Assembly: GCF_000092425.1 (NCBI RefSeq)
Contig: NC_014221.1
Span: 2,671,001 to 2,735,000 of the forward strand
Direction of reading: 5' to 3'
DNA: 64,000 bases
DNA from: Truepera radiovictrix DSM 17093
GTDB lineage: Bacteria > Deinococcota > Deinococci > Deinococcales > Trueperaceae
In this document: positions 45,626 through 52,771 of the stretch, one piece after another
How positions within the stretch are numbered: the first letter of the stretch is position 1
Layout: each line of letters starts with the position of its first letter
Notes under the pieces: model-generated
Database searches by the model: none
What the model was told of the DNA's origin: nothing
Seen by the model: only the letters and a program-made list of their open reading frames with translations
Translations under genes and position numbers: made by a program

Positions 45626-47083
45626 TCAGCGCTCGCTCACGACCGGCCGTCCCGCGTTGCCCTCAACGCCCCCAGGCAGCTCGTCGAACTCCTCGGAAAA
45701 GGCCGGCAGGGTGACCCGGAAGGTCGTCCCACGCCCCTGGACGCTCTCGACCTCGATCATCCCGCCGTGGACGTCGGTGATCTGCTTGGCGATCGCGAGC
45801 CCCAACCCCGCACCCCCGCCGGCACCCTTGTAGAACTTTTCGAAGATGTGCGGCAGCACCTCCTCGGGGATACCGGGGCCGCGGTCGCGCACGATCAGCA
45901 CGACGTGTTCGTCGGTCGTCACGAGCCCCAGGGTGACTTTGCGCGGGTTGCCGGTCGCTTTGACGGCGTTGGCGGTCAGGTTGCGCACGAGCTGTTTGAG
46001 CCGCTCCGGGTCGCCGAGCAACAGCCCCCCCGGGCGCGACTCGAGCCGCACCCCCGGAAACTCTTCAGCCACGGGTTTGAGGATGTCGGTGTGCGGGTCT
46101 AGAAGGTGCGGGACGTACTCGCGCACGAGCTGACCGCGCGTGAGCTGCAAAAGGTCGGCGACAAGCCGCGACATCGAACGGGCGATGCGCTGCGCGTCCT
46201 CGAGCTCGGCCCGCACCGAGGGGGGGGCGCGCCGCACCGAACGGTCCAAAAACCCCTGCAAGCTGGTTAAGGGCGTGCGCAGCTCGTGGCTCGTCTCGGC
46301 GAGAAAGGCGCGCTGCGCGTCCATCGAGGCTTTGAGGCGCAGGATAAGGTCGTTGAGCACGCTGCTCAGCTTGCCGACCTCGTCGTCGGGGCCGCGGTAC
46401 GTGATCGTCACGAGGTTGCTCGGGTCGAGCTGGGCGGCGGCGTTCGCGAGCTGCGTCACGGGGCGCGCGGCGGCAGCGGCCACGAGGTAACCGAGCAACA
46501 GGCTGAGGAGCACGAGAACGCCCGCCACGACCACGAGCATGCGGGCGAGCTGCTCGAGCGCCGCCCCGATGTACCCCGAGGGCGAGATCACGGCGGCCAC
46601 CCCGAACGACACGGGTGCGAGCGCCGCGCTCACGGGTTCACCGGCGAACACACCGTTCCAGGTCAGCGGACCCTCGCGCGCGGCGAGCACCACCTCGGTA
46701 GGAATAAGCAGCGTGCCGCGCCCCGCGGCCGCCTCATCCGCCTCGTTGGAGGCGGCGATGCGCGCCCCCGAGCTGCTGTAGAGGTGGATGATGACCCCGC
46801 CGGTGGCCGCGCTGCTCAGCCGCGGCGCTTCGGCGGCCTCACCCTCGAGCGGGTCCTCGGCGTCGGCAGCGTCGGCGGCATCGGCGTCGTACTCGCGGGC
46901 GACCCGCGCGACGTCCTCCTCGAGCGCTCGCCGCAGGTCCCCGATCAGGCTCGCCCGCACCACCGCGAAGGCCGCGAGCGACGCTAGCGCCGTAAAGCAG
47001 GCGATCGCCAGACCCGTAAAGAGGGTGATGCGCCAGCGCAGGGCGATACCGCGGCGAGAGATCATCGACCGAGTCTGCCGCAT
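45626..47083 (-). CDS. Sensor histidine kinase
   Basis: 485-residue membrane kinase. Two membrane segments (~20-42 and ~185-207) flank a periplasmic sensor of ~140 residues containing an acidic Ala/Asp stretch (DADAADAADAEDP). HAMP (~208-260), HisKA with FLAETSHELRTPL (phospho-His), and HATPase_c with an N-box NLTANAVKA, DRGPGIP and GAGLGLAIAK follow. All catalytic boxes are intact. It follows its response regulator by 43 bases in one operon. Start ATG at 47083, or 47065 (MISRRG). Stimulus unknown. Confidence 0.93.
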   Translation of the reverse strand: MRQTRSMISRRGIALRWRITLFTGLAIACFTALASLAAFAVVRASLIGDLRRALEEDVARVAREYDADAADAADAEDPLEGEAAEAPRLSSAATGGVIIHLYSSSGARIAASNEADEAAAGRGTLLIPTEVVLAAREGPLTWNGVFAGEPVSAALAPVSFGVAAVISPSGYIGAALEQLARMLVVVAGVLVLLSLLLGYLVAAAAARPVTQLANAAAQLDPSNLVTITYRGPDDEVGKLSSVLNDLILRLKASMDAQRAFLAETSHELRTPLTSLQGFLDRSVRRAPPSVRAELEDAQRIARSMSRLVADLLQLTRGQLVREYVPHLLDPHTDILKPVAEEFPGVRLESRPGGLLLGDPERLKQLVRNLTANAVKATGNPRKVTLGLVTTDEHVVLIVRDRGPGIPEEVLPHIFEKFYKGAGGGAGLGLAIAKQITDVHGGMIEVESVQGRGTTFRVTLPAFSEEFDELPGGVEGNAGRPVVSER

Positions 47084-47126
47084 CTAGCTTAAGGCGCGCT
47101 TAACGGCGCTCTCACCGTGACCCCGC

Positions 47127-47798
47127 TCAACTCTTGATGGCGTAGCCGATCCCGCGCACCGTCCGGATAAGGCCGTAACCGCCCGCGTCGCGCAGCTTGG
47201 CACGGATATTCGCGATGTGGACGTCCACGACGTTCGACGAGGGCGGTAACTCTTCGCCCCAGACGTTCTGCTCGATCTCCTGGCGGGTGTAGACGCGCCC
47301 CGGCGAACCGCAGAGGTAGACCAAGAGGTCGAACTCGCGCGGCGAGAGGCGGATCTCCTGCTTGTCCCAGTAGAGCTGCCGCCGGTTGATGTCGATGACC
47401 ATATCGCCGACAGTCTGCGCCGAACCCGCGTTCTGGTGGCGGAGCTGCACGCGGATCCGGGCCAGCAGCTCCTCGGTGTGAAAGGGCTTGGCGAGGTAGT
47501 CGTCGGCGCCGGCATTGAGCATCTCCACCTTCGTCGCGACGTCGTCGGCCGCGGTCAGGATGATGATCGGCGTGCTGCTCGTTTTGCGCACGCGGCGCGC
47601 GATCTCGGCGCCGCTAAGGTCGGGCAACCCCAGGTCGAGCACGATCAGGTCGGGGTTTAGCTCGCGCACGGCGGCGAGCCCGCGCATCCCCGTTTCGCAC
47701 GCCGTCACCCGGAACCCCGCCTCCTCGAGCTCGAGGGTTAGGAGGCGGCTGATATCTAGATCATCCTCCACGATTAAGATGTGCTTGCTTTGGCTCAT
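47127..47798 (-). CDS. OmpR-family response regulator
   Basis: 223 residues. Receiver domain ~1-120: acidic pocket E11-D12-D13, phospho-acceptor D55 in LIVLDLGLPD, Thr in ILTAADD and Lys in YLAKPF. Winged-helix DNA-binding domain ~128-222, with LSPREFDLLVYLC and VDVHIANIRAKLRD (recognition helix). ATG at 47798 follows AAGGGGAG. It is the first gene of the two-component operon with the downstream kinase, so the two should act together; the target genes are not evident. Confidence 0.95.
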   Translation of the reverse strand: MSQSKHILIVEDDLDISRLLTLELEEAGFRVTACETGMRGLAAVRELNPDLIVLDLGLPDLSGAEIARRVRKTSSTPIIILTAADDVATKVEMLNAGADDYLAKPFHTEELLARIRVQLRHQNAGSAQTVGDMVIDINRRQLYWDKQEIRLSPREFDLLVYLCGSPGRVYTRQEIEQNVWGEELPPSSNVVDVHIANIRAKLRDAGGYGLIRTVRGIGYAIKS

Positions 47799-47913
47799 CG
47801 TGATGTGCTCCCCTTGGTCAAACGGACTTTACGCGCACGAACTGTAGCGCAACAGCGGCGTCAACCCGAGCGCCGCCACGGGTCTCCAGGTGCGGCGCCA
47901 CGCCCTTGGGCCC

Positions 47914-48291
47914 CTAAGGCCCCGCGAGCGGCGCGAAGTGCAGCTCGATACCGTAAGCGTCCAGCAGCCACTTTTTCAGCGATACCGCCCGCTCGGCCCC
48001 CTCGAAGCGGACGAAGATGTCGTCGCCCGTGGGGCCGATGCGCCCGTACGGCGCCTCCGCTACCGCGGCCGCCGCCTCGCGCTCGCTGGCATCGGGGGGC
48101 AAGATCAAGAGCCGCACCTCGGTTTCGGGCTCGAGGGCGTGCGGAAACGTGAGCTCTTTCCCCTCGACGACCCCCGAGGTGTAGACGGGGATAAGGTCCG
48201 GATGGACGAGCTTTACGACCGTCCCTGGCAAAAACGCGTGGCCGGCGATGAACGCCTGGCCGAGCGCGAGCCAGAGCAAAAGCGCCTTCAT
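47914..48291 (-). CDS. Exported hypothetical protein
   Basis: 125 residues. A signal peptide (KALLLWLALGQAFIAGHAF) is followed by a small alpha+beta domain (VVKLVHPDLIPVYTSGVV, EVRLLILPPDASE, IFVRFEGAERAVSLKKWLL). Family not recognised. ATG at 48291 has an AGAGGCGA site. It is upstream of the two-component genes on the same strand (115 bases from the regulator's start), so co-transcription is possible. Confidence 0.7.
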   Translation of the reverse strand: MKALLLWLALGQAFIAGHAFLPGTVVKLVHPDLIPVYTSGVVEGKELTFPHALEPETEVRLLILPPDASEREAAAAVAEAPYGRIGPTGDDIFVRFEGAERAVSLKKWLLDAYGIELHFAPLAGP

Positions 48292-48552: not shown

Positions 48553-48930
48553 GTGCAGCGCGACCCGCAACGAGCCGCTCCTGAAGCGTTTTACCTCGAC
48601 GGCCCCCTCTACTACCTCGGCCGCGAGCTTCCTCACCAGCTCGACGTCACCTTGCTGCGCACCGAAGCGGGTCGCGCCGCGCTCCTCTTTCGCACCGAAA
48701 CCGGGGCGCGGGCGCACCTCGCCGCGCTCCCCCATGCGCTGCGCGTCAGGGTCGCGCCGGCGAACGATTGGCGCGCGAAAGAGGAGCTTCTGCTGGCCGC
48801 TGGGGCGCGCGGCGCGACTGCCGTGTGGCTCGACGTCGCCGTCGGCACCCTCGAGCCCACCTTGCGCGCCCCGCTCGCCGCAGCGCTCGCCTACGTGCGG
48901 TCGTTTCGACGCCAGAGCGCCTGCTTGTAG
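48553..48930 (+). CDS. Hypothetical protein
   Basis: 125-residue soluble protein, not recognised. Sequence suggests alpha+beta structure (FYLDGPLYYLGRELPHQLDVTLL, AALLFRTETGARAHLAALP), with a C-terminal helix. GTG at 48553 follows a G-rich run and a TAGCCT -10-like box ~7 bases upstream. It converges with the large protease gene, 21 bases between stops. Confidence 0.65.
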   Translation: MQRDPQRAAPEAFYLDGPLYYLGRELPHQLDVTLLRTEAGRAALLFRTETGARAHLAALPHALRVRVAPANDWRAKEELLLAAGARGATAVWLDVAVGTLEPTLRAPLAAALAYVRSFRRQSACL

Positions 48931-48951: not shown

Positions 48952-51618
48952 CTAAAAGGCGGCGCGCGGCCCCACCCCCAACCACACCCCGCCAGCGTAG
49001 CCGAGCGTCACCCCGAAGCTGACTGGCGTCCCGTAGCCGAGCACGGCGTCGAGCGAGGCCGTGAGGTCGGCCCCGACGTGCAGCGCGCCGTCCAGCCAGA
49101 GCCGCAACCGCGGCTCTAGGGTGACGCGCTCGGCGGCGTAGAGGCCGTCGCCGTAGCGGAGCGCGAGGGGAAGCGAGCGCCGCAACCCGAGCGTGCTGAG
49201 CACGGCGACGTCGGTCGCTGGCGCGGCGGGTAACGGCCAACGCGGGCGAAACCCCGCCAACCACGCCGCCTCCACCCCCCACCCCGCTTCGGTGCGCGCC
49301 ACCACCCCCTCCCCCCAGAGGCTTAACCCCCGCGCGGCGCTCCAGACCCCGTGGAGCGCCGCGCGCCCCCCCCGCACGCGGTACCCCCAGGGGTCGGTGC
49401 GCTCCTCGGCGAGCGCGGCGTGGGCGCTCGCCTCGAGAGCGCCGCGCGCAAGGGTGGGGTCCAGCAGCCTGAGCGCCGCCCCCTCGGCGCGGAGCGAGGC
49501 GGTGTAGCGGTCGAGGGGCAGGTACGCCCCCACATGGGCCCGCACCCCGAAGGCGGTCTCGCGGCGCCCCCCGCCCCCCGCGTAGGGCCAAGCGCCCGCC
49601 TGCACCCCGAAGCGCAGGGGGCGCGGCACCGCCCGCAGCACCTCGTACGCCCCGTAGTCGTAGCGCACGTAGCCGTAGAGGCCACTCGTGGCCGTCAGCG
49701 CGGTGTCGAAGCCGAGCACTGCGGCGTAGCTGTGCGCGGCGGAGTCGTCAAGGCCGAGCACGCTCACCTCGGCGGCGGCGCCGAAGGGCGCCACGCGCAG
49801 CTCCCCGGCGCTCGGCAGCCAACCGAAGGGGGCGAGGCTCGGCAGCGGCGTGTAGGGGCGCACGGGGAAGGGGCCGCGTTCGGGAGGCGCTGCCGGCGGC
49901 GTCTTTAGCGGCGGTGCGGCCGGCGCGAGAGCGTGCGGCGTGCGCTCTTGCAAGGCGTCGGCGGCGGATAAAAACGCCACGTCGTAACCGCCGCCACCTA
50001 GCGCTACGTACCAGACCCCCGTTCCCTCCGGGGAGGCCGCCGGGGCGAAGGCCCCCCCCAGGGTACGCGTCTGCTGCACGAGGCGCCCATCCGTGAGGGA
50101 GAGCTCGAAGAGCTCGGCGACCCCCTGCGGCCCCACCGCCCGAAAGAGGAGCGCCCTTTCGCCGCGCCACGCGGGCTCGAGCGCCTGCAGCTCGGGCGGG
50201 GTGAGCCAGCGCACCCCCCCCTCGGGGTCTAGCAGGGCGAGCCGCACCGCACCCCGCTGCCAGAGGCTCAGCGCCACCTGCCCCGCGGGGCTCACCGCCA
50301 CCCCCACCGGATGCACCCCCGGGGGCGCTGTCCAACGCGTGCGCACGTCGCCCTCACACCACGCGTCCAGGCGCGCCCGCTCGGGGGGAGCGTCGCGCAC
50401 GAAGAGCACGCACCCCTCGGGGGTAACCGCGGGGAGCTTGGCGCGCGCCCCGTTCGTGAGCTGCCGCTCGACCCCCGTGTGCACGTCGAGGGCGAAGAGC
50501 TCCGACAAGGTGCGGCCGGGCCGTGGGGCGACGCGCGCGTAGACGAGCGTGCGCGCGTCGAGCCAGGCGAGCGCCGTCGGCAACCGCCCCTCGAGGAGCG
50601 TGCGTTCGTCCTCGAGCGTGCCGCCGGGGCCGACCTCGGCGAGCTTGATCGCGGCCGGCCAGCTCACCCAAGCGAGCCTCCGGCCGTCCGGGCTCGGCGT
50701 CGGCGCGCGGGTATACCACCCCGTCGCGGTGCGCCGCGCCCCCACGCCGCGCACCTCGTGAAGCGCAGCGGCGCGCGTTCGGGCGCGCGCCAGCACCTCC
50801 GCGCGCCACGTCGCCCACTCGGCCTCTAGGTCCGTCCCGACCGCCTCGCGCCACGCCGCCGCAAAGGGGCGCAGCACCCCCCCGGCGTTAAAGGCGCGCA
50901 GGCTCGCCAGCACGGCCCCGAAGCCGTGTCGGGTGATCAGGGCGTCCGTAAAGGCGCCGCCGAAGAGGTACTGCGCCTGCGCCCCCGGCCACCCGCTAAA
51001 GGTCGCGAGGCTCACCTCGGGCAACGTCGGCCACCTTCCGGCGAGGGCAACGCTCTCCAAAAGCCCGCGGGTCAGGGCGGCGTCGCGGCGCCCCCCCGCG
51101 GTAAAGGTGCTCTCGGCCCACACCGCTAGCCCCTCGATAAGCCACGCCGGGGGCGGGGTCGCCGCCGTCTCCCCCACCAGGCCCAGGCGCGGCGCGCCGC
51201 GGCCCTCCAAAAAGGCGAACTGCAGCACGTGCGTGAGCTCGTGCACCAGGAGCAGCGCAAGGTCGCTCTCGGCGCCGTAGCCGAGCGCCGTGTCGGTCGG
51301 AAACAGCGCCCGCAGCCCCACGTTGGGTCGCGGCAGCGCGGAGGCGAGGCCGTTGTAGACGTCCGTCTCCCCCTCGACGCGGAGCGTCACGGGTGGGGCG
51401 GAGCCGAACAGGGGTTCCAGCACGTCGAGCGCTGCTTCGGCTTCGCGCGCCACGCGCTGGGCGTAGGCTAAGAGCGCCGGGTCCTCAAAAAGCACCCGCA
51501 CGCGCGGCGCGGCGACCTCGTAAGCGGCGTGACGGGAGGGCGCTTCGGGGGTGTGACCGCCCGCCCAACCGACCAACAGGGCGCTCGCGGTGAGGAGCGT
51601 TACAGCAAGGGGGCGCAC
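48952..51618 (-). CDS. Exported zinc metalloprotease with propeller-like and outer-membrane barrel regions
   Basis: 888 residues. Signal peptide ~1-21. Residues ~35-280 resemble the gluzincin peptidase-MA/M1-like fold: zinc motif H126-E-L-T-H130 and third ligand E162 in WLIEGLAVWAES. Residues ~290-570 hold repeated TolB-like strands (SPDGRRLAWVS, LFALDVHTGVERQLTNG, ASPEGTGVWYVA), a likely beta-propeller. Residues ~610-888 look like an outer-membrane barrel, ending in aromatic F (VGPRAAF). GTG at 51618. It follows a GT2 gene by 16 bases. The substrate is unknown; the fusion suggests a cell-surface protease. Confidence 0.82.
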   Translation of the reverse strand: MRPLAVTLLTASALLVGWAGGHTPEAPSRHAAYEVAAPRVRVLFEDPALLAYAQRVAREAEAALDVLEPLFGSAPPVTLRVEGETDVYNGLASALPRPNVGLRALFPTDTALGYGAESDLALLLVHELTHVLQFAFLEGRGAPRLGLVGETAATPPPAWLIEGLAVWAESTFTAGGRRDAALTRGLLESVALAGRWPTLPEVSLATFSGWPGAQAQYLFGGAFTDALITRHGFGAVLASLRAFNAGGVLRPFAAAWREAVGTDLEAEWATWRAEVLARARTRAAALHEVRGVGARRTATGWYTRAPTPSPDGRRLAWVSWPAAIKLAEVGPGGTLEDERTLLEGRLPTALAWLDARTLVYARVAPRPGRTLSELFALDVHTGVERQLTNGARAKLPAVTPEGCVLFVRDAPPERARLDAWCEGDVRTRWTAPPGVHPVGVAVSPAGQVALSLWQRGAVRLALLDPEGGVRWLTPPELQALEPAWRGERALLFRAVGPQGVAELFELSLTDGRLVQQTRTLGGAFAPAASPEGTGVWYVALGGGGYDVAFLSAADALQERTPHALAPAAPPLKTPPAAPPERGPFPVRPYTPLPSLAPFGWLPSAGELRVAPFGAAAEVSVLGLDDSAAHSYAAVLGFDTALTATSGLYGYVRYDYGAYEVLRAVPRPLRFGVQAGAWPYAGGGGRRETAFGVRAHVGAYLPLDRYTASLRAEGAALRLLDPTLARGALEASAHAALAEERTDPWGYRVRGGRAALHGVWSAARGLSLWGEGVVARTEAGWGVEAAWLAGFRPRWPLPAAPATDVAVLSTLGLRRSLPLALRYGDGLYAAERVTLEPRLRLWLDGALHVGADLTASLDAVLGYGTPVSFGVTLGYAGGVWLGVGPRAAF

Positions 51619-51634
51619 GTACCTCGGGGGCCCC

Positions 51635-52771
51635 TCACACCCGGTTGCGCTTGAGCTGCTCGAGCGGGTAAAAGGTCCCGCGCCAGGTGATCCCCCCGTA
51701 GCGCAGCGCCCGCAGCATCGACGCCAGCGCCGCGTAGCTCAGCACGGCGACCCCAAAAGGGTGCAGCAGGGCGTACCACGCCGGCAGCTTGCAGAGGCGG
51801 GCGTTGTAGCGGTAGACGAGCGCGATGTTGAGCAGGACCAGCGCGTAAAGCAGCCGCGTCAGCCCCGAGGTCATCAGCACCGCGGCGAAGGGGAGGATGT
51901 GGGTCACCAGGAGCCCCGCGAGCGCCAGCAGCAGCCAGGCGGGGGAGTACGCAAAACCCGCGAAGGCGTTTTTGCGCAGGCCGCGGATCGCCTCACCTAC
52001 GCTCCCGTACCACGCGACCCGCATGAGCTCGGGGGCCAGCACCACCCCCTGGCGAAAGCCCGCGCGCTTGACGAGTTTGCCGAGCATCATGTCGTCATCG
52101 GGCCGCAGCGCGATGGGGCGGTGCCCGCCGATGGCGCCATACACCGAGCGCTTGAGGAGGTTAAAGGCGCCGATGCCGACAAAACGCTTTGAGCGCGGCC
52201 GCGCGACCCGCCAGAGGCCGCTATAGAAACCGAACAGGAGCGTGAACACGGCGACGAACGACCCCAGCCAGGGGCTTTTCGCGACCATCCGTGGGAGCGC
52301 CGCGAGGTGGTCTAGGCCCGCGTCCTGGGCGAACGCCACCGCCGCGCGCAGCGCCCCCGGCGCGAACTGCACGTCGGCGTCGGTGAAAAGCAGCCACTCG
52401 CCGCGCGCCACCTGCGCCCCGCGCCACAGGGCGTGATTTTTACCGAGCCACCCTTCGGGGAGCCGCGACACGTGGAGCACCCGGAGCTGCGGGTGCTGCG
52501 CGCGCAGCGCCTCTAAGATCTCCCCCGTGCGGTCGGTTGAACGGTCGTTGAGGGCGACGACCTCGAGCCCCGGATAGTCTTGCTCGAGCACCGAGGTGAG
52601 CCCCGCGCGAATCGTCGCCTCTTCGTTGAGCGCGGGGACGACGACCGTCAGGGTGGGGAGCGCCCGGGTCTGGGGGTGCGCGCGCAGGTGCGGCACGCGG
52701 CGCATGCCCCAGAACCAGTCGAGGCTCAGGGCGACCCACAGCAGCAGGGTGATCGCGGCGAGCGGGAGCAC
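51635..52771 (-). CDS. Family 2 glycosyltransferase
   Basis: 378 residues. One N-terminal membrane segment (~3-20) precedes a GT-A domain: VVPALNEEATI, nucleotide-binding LNDRSTDRTGEIL, DxD-type LLFTDADVQF, and PDDDMMLGKLVKRAG. Three C-terminal membrane helices follow (~275-365). The WLGKNHALWRGA block matches GT2 enzymes of carotenoid or lipid glycosylation, so a lipid acceptor is plausible. GTG at 52771 lies 6-7 bases after a TATGCT box. Probably co-transcribed with the downstream protease gene. Confidence 0.9.
   Translation of the reverse strand: MLPLAAITLLLWVALSLDWFWGMRRVPHLRAHPQTRALPTLTVVVPALNEEATIRAGLTSVLEQDYPGLEVVALNDRSTDRTGEILEALRAQHPQLRVLHVSRLPEGWLGKNHALWRGAQVARGEWLLFTDADVQFAPGALRAAVAFAQDAGLDHLAALPRMVAKSPWLGSFVAVFTLLFGFYSGLWRVARPRSKRFVGIGAFNLLKRSVYGAIGGHRPIALRPDDDMMLGKLVKRAGFRQGVVLAPELMRVAWYGSVGEAIRGLRKNAFAGFAYSPAWLLLALAGLLVTHILPFAAVLMTSGLTRLLYALVLLNIALVYRYNARLCKLPAWYALLHPFGVAVLSYAALASMLRALRYGGITWRGTFYPLEQLKRNRV

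Follow-up and report, generated by a model that had tools for sequence, protein, structure and literature searches.

What does a single exported chain do in the bacterial envelope when it appears to join a zinc-peptidase motif, a propeller, and an outer-membrane barrel? Such a chain is encoded in the window, the 64,000-nucleotide stretch of Truepera radiovictrix DSM 17093 DNA that was analyzed. An initial annotation correctly placed it at 48952-51618 with 888 residues; the strand, absent from that annotation, is the minus strand. The features of the gene and its product, in window positions, are as follows.

48952-51618, minus strand: whole open reading frame (ORF), 888 amino acids, with a GTG start at 51618, a stop at 48952-48954, and near-full-length homologues.
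51622-51625, minus strand: GAGG, a candidate ribosome-binding site at -7 to -4 of the GTG, read from the sequence.
51556-51618, minus strand: putative signal peptide, residues 1 to about 21, a hydrophobic stretch seen by eye with similar starts in relatives.
50758-51528, minus strand: zinc-peptidase domain, residues 31-287, from a conserved-domain alignment, weak Peptidase_MA_2 matches in family members, and a mixed fold in the model.
51229-51243, minus strand: HELTH, residues 126-130, with two predicted His ligands and the general base Glu127.
51133-51135, minus strand: Glu162 in a P-x-W-x-x-E-G motif, the predicted third zinc ligand, E in 38/38 and 39/39 aligned sequences.
50968-50970, minus strand: Tyr217, a candidate transition-state residue, Y in 38/38 and 39/39 aligned sequences.
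49948-50757, minus strand: six-bladed TolB-type beta-propeller, residues 288-557, from structural and profile matches to TolB.
50410-50412, minus strand: Cys403, which with Cys421 (50356-50358) makes up the sole two cysteines of the protein, both in the propeller.
49810-49947, minus strand: linker and conserved lead-in (Y-x-P-x-x-S-L-x-P), residues 558-603, with low pLDDT at 559-580 and 592-602.
48964-49809, minus strand: predicted 16-stranded Omp85-type outer-membrane barrel, residues 604-885, from both models, the fold search, and hydropathy.
49186-49254, minus strand: shortened loop L6 region, residues 789-811, from the alignment, with the RG[FY] signature absent.

The GC contents at codon positions 1, 2, and 3 of the ORF were 0.78, 0.59, and 0.91, as in a genuine GC-rich gene. 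As read from the sequence, no start codon other than GTG occurs downstream of the in-frame stop and ahead of the signal-like stretch. The protein matched 23 of 61 genomes, the window's own genome counted among the 61, and homologues of 41 to 57% identity, nearly full length and without internal stops, were present in eight related genomes. Eight named homologue loci, found by pattern, belong to Trueperaceae, Truepera, and Thermaceae assemblies. An artefact of a GC-rich antisense frame was ruled out by this conservation among relatives. The signal peptide proposed in the initial annotation is supported by the hydrophobic N-terminal stretch and by the relatives that start similarly. A genome of the same genus carries two copies of the family (G001:C90 and G001:C63), which share 57% and 53% identity with the window protein. 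Searched as a single sequence against Pfam and NCBIfam, the protein gave nothing beyond one weak propeller repeat, and a PDB sequence search with it alone returned a single chance-level match (E 0.2). A plasmid search gave no match.

AlphaFold2 models were built from nine sequences. The full-length model had a pLDDT of 78.4 and a pTM of 0.76, and the barrel-only model, with 16 strands, had a pLDDT of 78.4 and a pTM of 0.69; in the fold search with the full model, the match list was filled by the propeller. Model confidence was lowest in the peptidase domain (pLDDT <50 at residues 89-96, 110-112, and 141-151). Predicted helices 119-135 and 158-172 of the full model carry HELTH and Glu162, respectively. 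His126, Glu127, His130, Glu162, Tyr217, and Gly220 were identical in all 38 aligned sequences; 18 of these, the window protein among them, come from the order, and the other 20 come from genomes whose only label is "same domain." In a set of 39 rows, which includes the window and partly overlaps the first alignment, the H, E, H, and E positions, Gly163, and Tyr217 were identical throughout and Gly220 was identical in 37. The window protein has the HEXXH motif and the downstream Glu that mark gluzincins of the MA clan, conserved in both sets, so that the reading of a HELTH...E site in the initial annotation is upheld. Weak matches to Peptidase_MA_2 (PF13485) were found in 10 of 27 members (best, 2.4e-4); matches above the Pfam cut-off were found in 0 of 21 genomes, and the window's own peptidase domain had no Pfam match at E 1 or better, Peptidase_MA_2 included. 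Because these scores lie under the cut-off, the domain is assigned to the gluzincin motif class and not to that Pfam family. The peptidase-domain profile gave only weak matches in the PDB, the best being to the aminopeptidase 3cia (E 0.0087) and to collagenases.

The best structural match of the propeller was TolB, with a Z score of 24.5, an rmsd of 2.3, and 232 residues aligned to 9a2l, an integrative model; the TolB crystal structure 3iax gave a Z score of 24.4, and the propeller profile matched TolB at E 7.1e-11. The "about six TolB-like repeats" seen earlier are therefore a six-bladed TolB-type propeller by both fold and profile. TolB itself has a six-bladed propeller like that of the window protein and is soluble, with a separate N-terminal domain. 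The NCBIfam model of TolB did not match the window protein at E 1 or better, and a TolB above the family cut-off was absent from the genome (best score, 31.1 bits versus 343.15). Cys403 and Cys421 were invariant in a nine-row alignment and are a possible disulphide pair. The lead-in before the barrel was also present in distant homologues. In the predicted secondary structure, the stretch that links propeller to barrel showed no apparent POTRA domain, and none was found by Pfam.

We examined the C-terminal third for its fold and ancestry. Both the full and the barrel-only models predicted 16 strands at residues 604-885. The hydropathy of these strands alternated, a pattern equaled in 0 of 2,000 within-strand shuffles, whereas the propeller strands showed no such alternation (1,061 of 2,000 shuffles equaled the observed pattern). 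In a Foldseek search with the barrel, all six matches at E 0.001 or better were Omp85-type chains (BamA, Sam50, and FhaC). After re-alignment, the top solved match was Deinococcus radiodurans BamA (Z 17.6, rmsd 4.4, 278 residues, 14% identity), followed by other BamA, Sam50, and TamA chains from Z 16.3 downward. The best non-Omp85 barrel, 4y25, had a Z score of 15.5 and ties with many Omp85 chains; non-Omp85 barrels starting at this score thus overlap with the lower Omp85 rows. A soluble C-terminal sandwich, the result named earlier as speaking against a barrel, was not seen in the models or the fold search and is unlikely, because the strands are 16, long, and alternating and the best structural matches are Omp85 barrels. 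The outer-membrane barrel of the initial annotation is borne out by the same evidence. Its description as amphipathic strands ending in Phe stands for the strands but not for the terminal Phe, which was not conserved among relatives.

The C-terminal profile of distant homologues matched Deinococcota BamA with a probability of 97.7 and an E value of 1.6e-12 (reversed control, 0.56), and 7 of 20 distant homologues matched Pfam Omp85 (best, 7e-15). The window protein gave no match to Pfam Omp85 even at E 10, and barrel profiles of its branch did not detect BamA (E 0.14 with 12 rows, reversed control 0.59; E 0.038 with 18 rows, reversed control 0.33). These branch profiles matched the distant C terminus over a short stretch, at E 1.9e-4 and probability 47 with 12 rows (reversed control, 0.15) and at E 8.9e-5 and probability 60 with 18 rows (reversed control, 0.14). 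A barrel-only alignment matched the distant homologues over 59 columns covering the lead-in and the opening strands (probability 88, E 3.2e-6). Three proteins of the same order, L071, L072, and L073, matched the distant C-terminal profile at 3e-16, 1e-34, and 2e-32 and the window-side C-terminal profile at 1e-4, 2e-7, and 5e-7, respectively, and they retain the loop-6 motif as VRGL, VRGY, and LRGY. By these profile scores, the three proteins bridge the barrel of the window branch and the distant Omp85-like barrels. Altogether, the window barrel is strongly predicted to descend from an Omp85 barrel.

The loop-6 stretch was missing from the alignment in all 18 window-side rows, and RG[YFL] occupied the aligned loop-6 position in 15 of 20 distant rows. 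Because loop L6 and its RG[FY] signature are absent, we call the window protein a derived Omp85 offshoot, not a canonical member. In a tree of 64 proteins, 21 members from the order, including the window protein, formed one branch with an SH-aLRT support of 100, and L071 to L073 fell outside it; the tree was a quick build with SH-aLRT support alone and gave long-branch and uneven-composition warnings. The RG label on the tree is crude, as it flagged the window protein and L018 through motifs elsewhere in their sequences. If the proposed reading of the protein is right, the window branch offers a natural test of the role of loop L6, as a barrel of the same ancestry that lacks it.

Next, we examined how widely the three parts occur together. 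With E values of 1e-5 or better, the peptidase-domain profile found matches in 204 genomes out of 390; 48 of these belong to the order, and the other 156 are labelled "same domain." The search is partly circular for the 27 rows behind the profile, which match by construction. Among the matches listed, most were in ORFs of 800 to 1,200 residues. Presence was patchy: 12 genomes of the window's family matched the peptidase-domain profile, and others listed did not. The loci examined were hand-picked from match lists rather than drawn at random. In the first 20, all distant, HEXXH was found in 20, PD40 in 16, Pfam Omp85 in 7, and Peptidase_MA_2 in 3; in a further 20, HEXXH was found in all, and an Omp85-like C terminus (1e-3 or better) was found in 18, the exceptions being L132 and L134. 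A search with a barrel profile, which is partly circular because the profile was made from family members, added 11 loci, 9 of which had the peptidase profile, HEXXH, and barrel in one ORF; the exceptions were L141, without HEXXH, and L150, whose barrel ORF is truncated on its N-terminal side by the region edge. On these matches, the three-part chain is a widespread, poorly studied family and not a one-off. The view that the architecture is unusual was not sustained, since numerous genomes from outside the phylum encode the same chain, and fusions of a propeller with Omp85 have been on record since 2014 (PMC4104836). The homologue L141 (G214:C185) has a truncated peptidase domain and keeps its propeller and barrel matches, indicating that the enzyme part can be lost in the family.

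We compared the chain with known systems. In the WD40-Omp85 subfamily, a TolB-like propeller precedes the Omp85 barrel, a non-POTRA architecture, and the survey section that describes the subfamily does not require POTRA domains for non-POTRA subfamilies (Heinz et al. 2014, PMC4104836). The propeller-before-barrel layout, as given in that section, is common to this subfamily and the window protein. In contrast to that subfamily, the window protein carries a peptidase ahead of the propeller, which the survey section leaves unmentioned, and its branch lacks L6 and RG[FY]. In the same section, a separate "Metallo" Omp85 subfamily carries PF00149, which is presented there as a metalloprotease domain joined to an Omp85 barrel (PMC4104836). 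So described, that fusion likens the "Metallo" subfamily to the window protein. PF00149 is a calcineurin-type phosphoesterase family and not a HEXXH peptidase. In PlpD, according to an excerpt of its description, an enzyme domain lies N-terminal to a 16-stranded Omp85 barrel, as in the window protein, and was found only in the periplasm (PMC11116518). PlpD has a lipase-like domain and POTRA domains, whereas the window protein has a zinc peptidase and a propeller; no patatin domain was matched in it by Pfam at E 1 or better, and a HEXXH domain is present instead. BepA, an M48 peptidase at BAM, is described in an excerpt as a periplasmic zinc peptidase acting in the fate of outer-membrane proteins (PMC8423444). 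The window protein, as proposed below, would be similar in both respects. Unlike the window peptidase, which shares its chain with a barrel, BepA is soluble, has TPR repeats, and exists as a separate protein. Judged by titles and the starts of abstracts in the open-licence literature, no peptidase-propeller-Omp85 fusion was found among the matches listed, apart from PMC4104836. As far as these searches show, the apparent novelties are the conserved HEXXH domain before the propeller and the loss of loop 6 in the window branch.

The chain is strongly predicted to be secreted and to combine an intact gluzincin motif, a TolB-type propeller, and a 16-stranded Omp85-derived barrel. With moderate confidence, we propose that it is an outer-membrane-anchored, periplasm-facing zinc peptidase on a repurposed Omp85 barrel that would act in the quality control or maturation of envelope proteins. 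The chain would be exported by Sec, and its barrel would be inserted by the cell's own BamA, taken to be the one separate Omp85 gene in the genome above the Pfam cut-off. Because both ends of Omp85 barrels are in the periplasm, the propeller and peptidase would lie beneath the outer membrane, a placement for which the enzyme domain of PlpD is a precedent (PMC11116518). The propeller, between the peptidase and the barrel, may be a docking part that recognizes or positions substrates or partners and could in this sense be the adaptor of the protease that the initial annotation supposed. The peptidase would cut envelope proteins that reach the inner face of the outer membrane, a quality-control or maturation role such as BepA has for LptD. 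In the window branch, the loss of loop L6 and RG[FY] indicates that the barrel is probably an anchor or gate rather than a BamA-type insertase. Zinc binding, proteolysis, and topology are predicted for the window protein, and its substrate and quality-control role are suggested by analogy with such systems.

The barrel could alternatively still insert or escort outer-membrane proteins, with a BamB-like propeller and a peptidase that removes failed clients. The RG[YFL] motif kept in many of the distant homologues is consistent with such an all-in-one insertase, but the missing L6 of the window branch, the other Omp85 gene already in the genome, and the lack of an apparent POTRA-like stretch between propeller and barrel in the model make it unlikely. 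It appears distinctly improbable that the barrel serves, in a type V-like manner, to carry the other two domains out to the cell surface, as the N-terminal domains of Omp85 proteins are generally known to be periplasmic. The PlpD family was long read as such a surface system according to the survey section (PMC4104836), but the excerpted later work finds its enzyme domain only in the periplasm (PMC11116518). It is highly improbable that the protein is a sensor or regulator, a peptidase devoted to processing a single envelope signal and perhaps linked to the neighboring two-component system. Genes for a small secreted-looking protein, a sensor kinase, and a response regulator do adjoin the protease gene in the window and at the loci of four relatives, but no such neighbors turned up at the remaining order loci under comparison, some with short flanks. 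In addition, the family is far wider than Trueperaceae, and a small opposite-strand ORF separates the protease gene from the two-component genes in the window.

Extended to the family, the proposal of an anchored periplasmic peptidase leads to a more tentative one. An Omp85 class reaching well beyond the phylum, whose single chain unites an intact zinc peptidase with a TolB propeller, might form a self-contained station for client processing or quality control at the outer membrane, and one Deinococcota branch, stripped of L6, might have turned an insertase barrel into a protease anchor. If so, many bacteria would have proteolysis as an integral part of an Omp85 protein. This would also point to a possible function for a large set of proteins whose propeller is mainly what sequence libraries recognize.

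The gene neighborhood was compared across 27 loci of the order, two of them the same place. A family-2 glycosyltransferase gene (window 51635-52771, minus strand), resembling HpnB below the curated cut-off, lies 16 bases upstream of the protease gene in the same direction; it was rejected as an operon partner, with no match in the 27 loci, some of which have short flanks. Downstream of the protease gene, at 45626-48291 on the minus strand, are genes for a 125-amino-acid secreted-looking protein without a Pfam match, the response regulator, and the sensor kinase. This three-gene order was kept in four Trueperaceae-side loci (L022, L024, L028, and L058), where the regulator was 73 to 90% identical. 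The small ORF at 48553-48930 on the plus strand encodes 125 amino acids with a sub-threshold DUF3234 match and stands tail to tail with the protease gene, 21 bases apart; its relatives adjoin the protease in L022, L028, and L058.
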